DNA of 64,000 nucleotides from Hyphomonadaceae bacterium (GTDB lineage: Bacteria; Pseudomonadota; Alphaproteobacteria; Caulobacterales; Aquidulcibacteraceae). The position numbers and the translations under genes were made by a program. Below are positions 56,185 to 57,193 of this stretch, piece after piece. How positions within the stretch are numbered: the stretch's first letter is position 1; each line of letters begins with the position of its first letter. The DNA lies in NCBI GenBank assembly GCA_016791445.1, contig JAEUMP010000003.1, positions 1-64,000 on the forward strand. Reading direction: 5' to 3'. The notes below the pieces were generated by a model. The model saw nothing but the letters and a program-made list of their open reading frames with translations, was not told where the DNA came from and searched no databases.

Positions 56185-56709
56185 CTAGTCGAACTGCCCA
56201 TGGCTAGCTTTGTCGAACAACTCCCTTTCGATCTCGGCTAGTTTTAGCAGGTATTCACTTTCCGGCATTCCGCGTTGCGTCGCGCGCGACGCCGCGAGCT
56301 TGGCTAAGTCCGCATCAATGCTCTCGTATGAAGCCGCGACTGTCTCAAGCATTGAGATCAATTCCGTGCAGCCGCCAACTGTCGTCAGTCGGAGCGAATG
56401 CTTTCGGAAGAAGCGATGTGAGAGTTCATCTCTCTCAAGCTTGAATGCGTGCAGCCGCGCAAGCAGGTGGCCATCTGGTGAGAAGAGCTTCTCAAACTTT
56501 CGTAGGAGATTTCCGAAGGTAAGTTTCTCGTTCTTCAGATAAAACTCGTCGAACTTGGCTTGCGATGGCTGCGCGCAGGACGCGGTCTCTATGTCAGCGA
56601 GAAGTCCAATGAGACTCGTTTCGCAGCATTGGGCGAAGTAAACTGCTAAGCCGAAGCGCGCGTAGACCTCTTTGACGATTTCGCCGTCGGGATCCCTATC
56701 TGGCTCCAT
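56185..56709 (-). CDS. Unknown HEPN-like protein in low-GC insert
   Basis: 174 residues from the ATG at 56709 (AAGAGA ten bases upstream); a TTG at 56748 is also in frame but lies in the terminator tail. Helical throughout. The segment LHAFKLERDELSHRFFRKH contains R-D-x-x-x-H, matching the Rx4-6H motif of HEPN-domain RNases. The upstream helix (FGLAVYFAQCCETSLIGLL) resembles the first HEPN helix. About 50% GC in the line counted, against ~67% around, and no partner nucleotidyltransferase gene. It may be a toxin/defence RNase or an inactive relative. It follows a leader-like unit with its own terminator. Confidence 0.6.
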   Translation of the reverse strand: MEPDRDPDGEIVKEVYARFGLAVYFAQCCETSLIGLLADIETASCAQPSQAKFDEFYLKNEKLTFGNLLRKFEKLFSPDGHLLARLHAFKLERDELSHRFFRKHSLRLTTVGGCTELISMLETVAASYESIDADLAKLAASRATQRGMPESEYLLKLAEIERELFDKASHGQFD

Positions 56710-56740
56710 ACCGATCCATCTCTTGGTGGTAGCTAGTCTT

Positions 56741-56779
56741 GAAAACAAAACGCCGCCCCGGGTTTCCCCGGAGCGGCGC
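56741..56779 (-). terminator. Strong terminator between leader ORF and HEPN-like gene
   Basis: On the minus strand a GC-rich stem (CGCCGCTCCGG/CCGGGGCGGCG with one bulge and an AAA loop) is followed by TTTTGTTTTC. It lies 32 bases upstream of the HEPN-like ATG and about 40 bases after the small ORF, so it would end the leader transcript or act as an attenuator. Confidence 0.8.
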
Positions 56780-56817
56780 CATTGTCGGACCGCTGAGCGA
56801 TCCCTGACCAGATGCGC

Positions 56818-56886
56818 TTAGGCGCGAACCCCGTTCATGGAGGTCCAGGTCAGGCGGGCCGCTAACGGCGAACGACGATGAGACAC
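56818..56886 (-). CDS. 22-codon leader-type ORF with perfect Shine-Dalgarno
   Basis: Read on the minus strand, AAAGGAGGTGATCC (56888-56901) is an exact complement of the 16S rRNA 3' end. Seven bases after its AGGAGG core a GTG opens a 22-codon frame ending TAA (product MSHRRSPLAARLTWTSMNGV plus two residues). A 7-base element inside the ORF (minus-strand CCTGACC, 56848-56854) can pair with GGTCAGG after it (56803-56809), and a strong terminator follows. The layout is that of a leader peptide/attenuator or a small mRNA. No known leader peptide is recognised. Confidence 0.5.
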   Translation of the reverse strand: MSHRRSPLAARLTWTSMNGVRA

Positions 56887-56921
56887 TGGATCACCTCCTT
56901 TCAAAAGTTGAAGCCAAGACG

Positions 56922-56949
56922 AAGGTAGGGTGCGCCGCGACGTTTGCAA
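56922..56949 (-). promoter_or_regulatory. Possible promoter of the leader unit
   Basis: On the minus strand TTGCAA (56949-56944) and TACCTT (56927-56922) are separated by 16 bases and would start transcription about 15 bases before the Shine-Dalgarno sequence. The -10 is weak, so this is tentative. Confidence 0.3.
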
Positions 56950-57032
56950 AGGGGGCGCTGCGTTTGGGCGATGGGCGAGGCGCCGATGCACGTCCGGACG
57001 CGAAAATCGACCTGTTGTGATGCAGCGTCAGC

Positions 57033-57187
57033 CCCTCTCCCGCGCCGGAGCGGGAGAGGGAAGATCGCGAAGCGATCAGGGTGAGGGCGCGGTGGCGCAG
57101 AACGTGTCTCATCCTGAGAAACCGGCCCTCACCCTGCTTCTCGCATGGCTCGAAGCGGTCCCTCTCCCGCTCAGGCGCGGGAGAGGG
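57033..57187. repeat. Composite palindromic repeat element
   Basis: Two copies of the palindrome CCCTCTCCCGC/GCGGGAGAGGG (57033-57060 and 57160-57187) flank a 12-base inverted repeat CAGGGTGAGGGC (57077-57088)/GCCCTCACCCTG (57125-57136), so the whole element is nearly symmetrical. This is a REP/BIME-like intergenic mosaic. It ends seven bases before the DUF885 stop codon, and the arms could act as a bidirectional transcription barrier. Confidence 0.75.
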
Positions 57188-57193
57188 AAAAGG

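Follow-up and report, generated by a model that had tools for sequence, protein, structure and literature searches.

On the minus strand near the end of the window (the whole 64,000-nucleotide stretch of DNA that was analysed), a strong complement of the 16S rRNA tail, a very short open reading frame (ORF) and a GC-rich hairpin follow one another just upstream of an ORF that had been described as HEPN-like. The locus raises the question of what such a unit is for. The original prediction had left three options: a translation-coupled attenuator of the HEPN-like gene, a free-standing small protein, or a small RNA that binds ribosomes. The Shine-Dalgarno (SD) sequence, the 22-codon ORF with its GTG start, the in-ORF pairing element and the terminator that it had described are all present in the sequence. 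The features of the unit, in window coordinates, are as follows.

56944-56949, minus strand: -35-like TTGCAA, a promoter element predicted from the sequence
56922-56927, minus strand: -10-like TACCTT, predicted promoter; the transcript start is predicted at about 56915
56886-56902, minus strand: near-perfect SD GAAAGGAGGTGATCCAG, complement of the 16S 3' tail
56818-56886, minus strand: ORF VSHRRSPLAARLTWTSMNGVRA, GTG start, 22 codons plus TAA; frame and stop position are kept in homologues
56873-56880, minus strand: 5' arm of helix P1, CATCGTCG, codons 3-5; pairs with 56787-56780, with covariation and a place in the Rfam consensus
56780-56787, minus strand: 3' arm of P1, CGACAATG, abutting the terminator; covaries with the 5' arm
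56848-56854, minus strand: CCTGACC, 5' strand of helix P3, inside the ORF; pairs with GGTCAGG in the MFE fold
56803-56809, minus strand: GGTCAGG, 3' strand of P3; partner of CCTGACC in the MFE fold
56839-56848, minus strand: in-ORF mimic of the 16S tail, CTGGACCTCC (tentative helix P2); complementary to parts of the SD, which it could mask
56741-56780, minus strand: predicted intrinsic terminator hairpin and T-tract; its helix covaries

A 16S-tail complement in an RNA of the CC2171 family

Read in the direction of transcription, TTCAAC is followed by GAAAGGAGGTGATCCAG, which runs into the GTG, then by the 22-codon ORF and by the GC-rich hairpin with TTTTGTTTT. The terminator hairpin proper occupies 56780-56749 and the T-tract comes after it. 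The RNA fold of the unit has a z of -3.96 relative to shuffles. It was found that GAAAGGAGGTGATCCAG (56902-56886) is the complement of CTGGATCACCTCCTTTC, the 3' tail of 16S rRNA, over 17 contiguous Watson-Crick pairs, and not only over the 14 bases that had been noticed originally. The pairing reaches the first base of the GTG, and GGAGG lies 7 nt before it. As this assembly contains no 16S gene, the tail sequence was taken from four relatives of the same order. The energy of the SD:16S duplex is -35 kcal/mol; for the 36 long ORFs of the window the median is -10 and the strongest value -19.9. The 3.6 Mb genome has only three occurrences of GGAGGTGATCC, and the two outside the unit lie in coding-like sequence where the arrangement is absent. 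The arrangement is not regarded as a chance one because it recurs across the Alphaproteobacteria.

In a cmscan search against Rfam the unit matched RF01867 ("CC2171") and scored 75.4 bits (E 7.5e-15), which is 0.4 bits above the cut-off of 75. The match is full length (1-159), and the SD, the start region, the P1 helix and the terminator are common to both; the consensus long-range helix of RF01867, which encloses the interior, is present in the unit with one C-A mismatch. Sequence and structure place the unit in RF01867, right at the family's cut-off. The Caulobacter sRNA CC2171 reportedly stems from the tiling-array survey of Landt et al. in 2008. RF01867 is entered as a Caulobacter sRNA of unknown function and the database entry mentions no ORF. 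Elsewhere the family name is listed in Mesorhizobium as MH_s33 (PMC5596092), and Rfam 15 notes one extra covarying pair for RF01867. As far as the main text of Schrader et al. 2014 (PMC4117421) goes, most Caulobacter ncRNAs are not translated, and two earlier ones, which it does not name, are. The literature searched contained no functional study of CC2171/RF01867; as far as these sources show, the class-wide extent of the family, its conserved frame with a neutrally drifting peptide and the hypothesis of ribosome gating developed below are new.

Occurrence in the class and neighbouring genes

A strict DNA pattern was run on a phylum-wide sample, with the split between groups counted from the kinship column of that sample. 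It matched 46 of 86 alphaproteobacterial genomes, one copy each, and none of the 213 genomes of other Pseudomonadota; a reversed control pattern gave 0 matches on the same sample. The RF01867 model, at E<=0.001, matched 100 of the 200 genomes searched in the order and 61 of the 289 searched class-wide; of 14 control genomes Caulobacter was the only one with a match. Named contigs with the unit belong to the Sphingomonadales, the Hyphomicrobiales/Rhizobiales, Acetobacteraceae/Azospirillum and the Caulobacterales. AAAGGAGGTG is invariant in alignment A1 and the full form of the SD is retained in most divergent homologues. The most constant element of the RNA family is the full complement of the 16S tail. 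Both the ORF and the stems, on whose conservation in relatives the original prediction had staked itself, are conserved.

The Sphingomonadales have a second RNA type (group B, loci within L050-L168) whose ORF has exactly 18 codons and begins MSHGSA.... At least one genome (G215, loci L188 and L189) carries this type and, at another place, a CC2171-like copy as well. The second type may be regulated differently, because it is without the -10 element of group A. Further divergent types include MSSDFVFQ... and MSSEKPG...; in the Sphingomonadales, Rhizobiaceae-like and other variants the Rfam matches, where there are any, fall below the RF01867 cut-off. In several divergent types (L226, L209, L236, L238, L213, L234) hairpins of the kind GGAG-CAGY-CTCC often stand at the end of the ORF and give an 'EQP/EQS' motif, with compensatory changes visible by eye. 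A congener (G001, L018 / L003 about 950-1000) has, about 1.6 kb from its full unit, a partial second copy consisting of the 3' end and terminator only, which is 84% identical.

The order of SD, short ORF, alternative pairing and terminator with a gene close downstream is leader-like and speaks for attenuation of the HEPN-like gene. The ORF itself is present downstream of the unit (56185-56748, minus strand), but no HEPN match was found for it in Pfam, PADLOC or PDB sequence searches, and its one weak match was to the uncharacterised PHROG phrog_12893 (E 4.6e-7). No homologue of this ORF stands beside the unit in the other loci compared, which include two congeners that carry the unit without the gene. 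Across the class the next gene, called by a simple GC3-based gene caller, is convergent in 80 of 128 called cases and co-directional in 48 of 128, and its identity differs between orders; a conserved same-strand gene directly downstream, as an attenuator would regulate, was not found. Synteny is limited to lineages, with a convergent acyl-CoA dehydrogenase gene in the Caulobacterales and a class-IV aminotransferase gene in some Sphingomonadales, and for this reason a conserved neighbour was also rejected as target. Attenuation of the HEPN-like gene was rejected because congeners keep the unit without the gene and the neighbours differ in identity and orientation; as an explanation it is very improbable. 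It is possible that the HEPN-like ORF was inserted here recently, with the unit on one side and the convergent gene for acyl-CoA dehydrogenase on the other.

A further point against a leader is the unit's own conserved promoter-like element. Of 103 group-A homologues, 44 have TAnnnT 26-28 nt 5' of AAAGGAGG (the SD), and CTTTGCA-type elements recur at the -35-like position in Caulobacterales homologues. A generic sigma-70 scan of the unit found no promoter. We infer that transcription of the unit is driven by a promoter of its own. Since the neighbours vary and the unit has its own -10-like element, it appears to be autonomous and not the leader of any particular gene.

A conserved frame, a drifting peptide and a covarying helix

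In group A (n=104) the first in-frame stop has an interquartile range of 22-24 codons with an sd of 2.4, as compared to an sd of about 24 in the other two frames. In group B (n=49) the stop falls at exactly 18 codons in 45 of 49 homologues. Frame and stop position are conserved across the 153 homologues (18 or about 23 codons), which argues for a translated RNA. The in-ORF CCTGG lies at nt 31, 34, 37 or 40 and is in one phase in 50 of 54 cases; the internal length changes of the ORF are therefore multiples of three. Such a pattern together with a conserved frame is hard to explain without translation, and the ORF is probably translated in this genome also.

The peptide behaves differently from the frame. 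Among 233 close pairs, single-base codon changes were synonymous in 206 cases and non-synonymous in 561, where 195 and 572 are expected without selection, and the second codon positions are the most variable positions in the ORF. As synonymous changes are at the neutral expectation, the peptide is not conserved. Apart from the first residues and the last codon the ratio is neutral, and purifying selection on amino acids was not detected in that part of the ORF. The exceptions are Ser2, which is kept with all four TCN codons in use, and the last sense codon: 49 of 95 non-redundant ORFs end with Ala, as compared to 13.7% at internal codons, and the third position of this codon is free. The homologue groups have almost no common residues past MS(H). 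The peptides are polar or basic and a conserved hydrophobic toxic peptide is not seen among them; a conserved run of codons for one amino acid was found in none of 142 ORFs. A general hairpin near the stop found almost no support (mean z -0.24, SE 0.12). The best explanation of this pattern is that the act of translation, and not the peptide, is under selection.

In the P1 helix, codons 3-5 (CATTGTC or a variant of it) pair with the bases that immediately precede the terminator; in the window the helix has one C-A mismatch, which is common to its congeners. In the pattern-selected loci the position of the 3' arm was derived from the terminator only, and in all 86 that could be scored the variable codon 4 residue matched its partner (T-A 53, T-G 2, G-C 29, C-G 2). 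In a swap test on 25 distinct arms, which include the fully changed AATGAGA, CATGAAT, AGTGATT, CACCAAA and CATTCTC, the own arms scored 13.5 and swapped arms 9.1 +/- 0.45, and 0 of 20,000 permutations reached the own score (p<=5e-5). It should be noted here that the loci of the swap test are not all free of bias, because the search that found some of them used RF01867, a model with P1 in its own consensus structure; the pattern-selected and DNA-selected loci in the P1 tests are free of it. As the homologues share ancestry, their counts are not independent events. In alignment A1 the P1 counts are higher than in any of 500 shuffles or any slide, and the terminator helix covaries as well.

Two further pairings are less general. 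The 7-base element in the ORF that had been noticed as able to pair just downstream is indeed so placed (CCTGACC, 56854-56848, with GGTCAGG, 56809-56803); by inspection the congeners keep CGACC/GGTCG versions of this P3 helix, which is limited to the lineage. In P2 the SD spacer would pair with CTGGAYC or CTGGACCTCC inside the ORF, a helix that is visible by eye. In a swap test across 25 spacer types the own pairing was slightly better than the swapped one, with mixed results, and masking of the SD by P2 is tentative.

The ribosome as a possible partner of the RNA

We propose that the unit encodes a ribosome-gated small RNA in which ribosome occupancy and not the peptide is selected, a reading for which we see about as much chance of being right as of being wrong. 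An autonomous gene would give an RNA of about 170 nt of the CC2171 (RF01867) family, whose uninterrupted complement of the 16S tail near the 5' end would capture 30S subunits. One arm of P1 lies directly after the start codon and the other abuts the terminator. A bound ribosome covers bases after the start codon, and a ribosome on the start codon would for that reason have to open P1. A translating ribosome would then clear the folded interior over 18-25 codons and be released at a stop in a conserved place. The RNA could thus have two states, a closed one with P1 formed and an open one occupied by a ribosome, with the peptide as a by-product. Selection on occupancy is the simplest reading because the length of the ORF and its stop are conserved and the peptide is not. 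The opening of P1 by the ribosome, and any effect in trans, are suggested by the geometry of the unit; candidate outputs in trans are the titration of 30S subunits, the exposure of a P1 arm to targets, and an RNA lifetime set by ribosome occupancy. Against this proposal stand the C-A mismatch in the P1 of the window, the statement of Schrader et al. that Caulobacter ncRNAs are for the most part untranslated, the mixed result for P2 and the near absence of support for a hairpin at the stop. Of the options raised originally, a ribosome-binding small RNA is the closest to this evidence, given the RF01867 family and its constant full complement of the 16S tail.

A wider form of this reading, possible though tentative, is that a class-wide RNA has the ribosome as its partner in trans, with the content-free ORF as moving part and P1 as switch; such an RNA could sense or buffer free 30S subunits through its full-length complement of the 16S tail. 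A rather unlikely explanation is that the unit is only a decoy or sponge, whose perfect SD binds free subunits or buffers initiation and whose ORF lets ribosomes leave. A sponge would have a complement like this one, which covers the entire single-stranded 16S tail with 17 pairs and -35 kcal/mol and varies least among the parts of the RNA, but titration would need a high copy number, and a sponge alone leaves the covariation of P1 and the tight stop position unexplained.

That the unit is an ordinary small-protein gene with the peptide of about 22 residues as functional product is unlikely. The start, frame, length and SD are conserved as such a gene requires, and the retention of Ser2 and of the final Ala with free third positions also fits. 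The peptide, however, drifts neutrally and is most variable at codon position 2, codons 3-5 change with their P1 partner and not with the amino acid, and the groups share almost nothing past MS(H). A conventional base-pairing sRNA, with SD and ORF secondary, is improbable: it would agree with the sRNA class given by Rfam, with the RNA's own terminator and with conserved 5' TTCAAC and TCTCAT stretches, but translation is required to explain a frame that is conserved with its indels in threes, and no conserved seed was found beyond the anti-16S stretch.

Known systems offer partial parallels to a ribosome-gated RNA. The nearest is CC2171 itself, catalogued by Rfam as an sRNA, with which the unit has the same SD, start region, P1 and terminator. 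Small RNAs with a short ORF that encodes a functional small protein, such as the dual-function sRNAs Spot 42 and SgrS, are similar in layout, but the peptide of the unit is unconserved. In full-length type I toxin mRNAs of the hok/tisB kind the 5' coding region is paired to the 3' end, a long-distance pairing like P1; unlike them, the unit has no hydrophobic toxin and no known antisense RNA, its peptide is unconserved and its SD lies outside the helix. The attenuator-derived sRNA rnTrpL of Sinorhizobium meliloti, with its leader ORF for peTrpL (PMC10117765, where Spot 42 is also cited), likewise has a short ORF on a small terminated RNA; that ORF is translated and the RNA can act in trans. The rnTrpL ORF is, however, leaderless and tied to trpE, whereas the unit has a very strong SD, no conserved downstream operon and no conserved codons for one amino acid. 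In behaviour the unit resembles translated attenuator-derived and dual-function sRNAs, without a conserved peptide or cis target. BbsR14 of Bartonella, an anti-SD sRNA in the Alphaproteobacteria (PMC7717549), shares SD/anti-SD pairing with it in the opposite polarity: RNAs of the BbsR14 type mimic the 16S tail and could mask the SDs of mRNAs, whereas the unit complements the tail.

RF01867, which Rfam files as an sRNA without an assigned function, bears the signature of a conserved translation unit whose peptide is free to vary. It is present as a single copy across much of one class that includes model organisms (Caulobacter, and members of the Rhizobiales and Sphingomonadales). If the ribosome is indeed its partner, it would be a regulatory RNA with initiation capacity as its direct input.

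At 57031-57191 of the window, immediately upstream of the unit, there are two inverted CCCTCTCCCGC...GCGGGAGAGGG repeats. They have sub-threshold matches to the Rfam whalefall-1 family (30.2 and 21.8 bits, cut-off 37) and are probably a REP-like pair.
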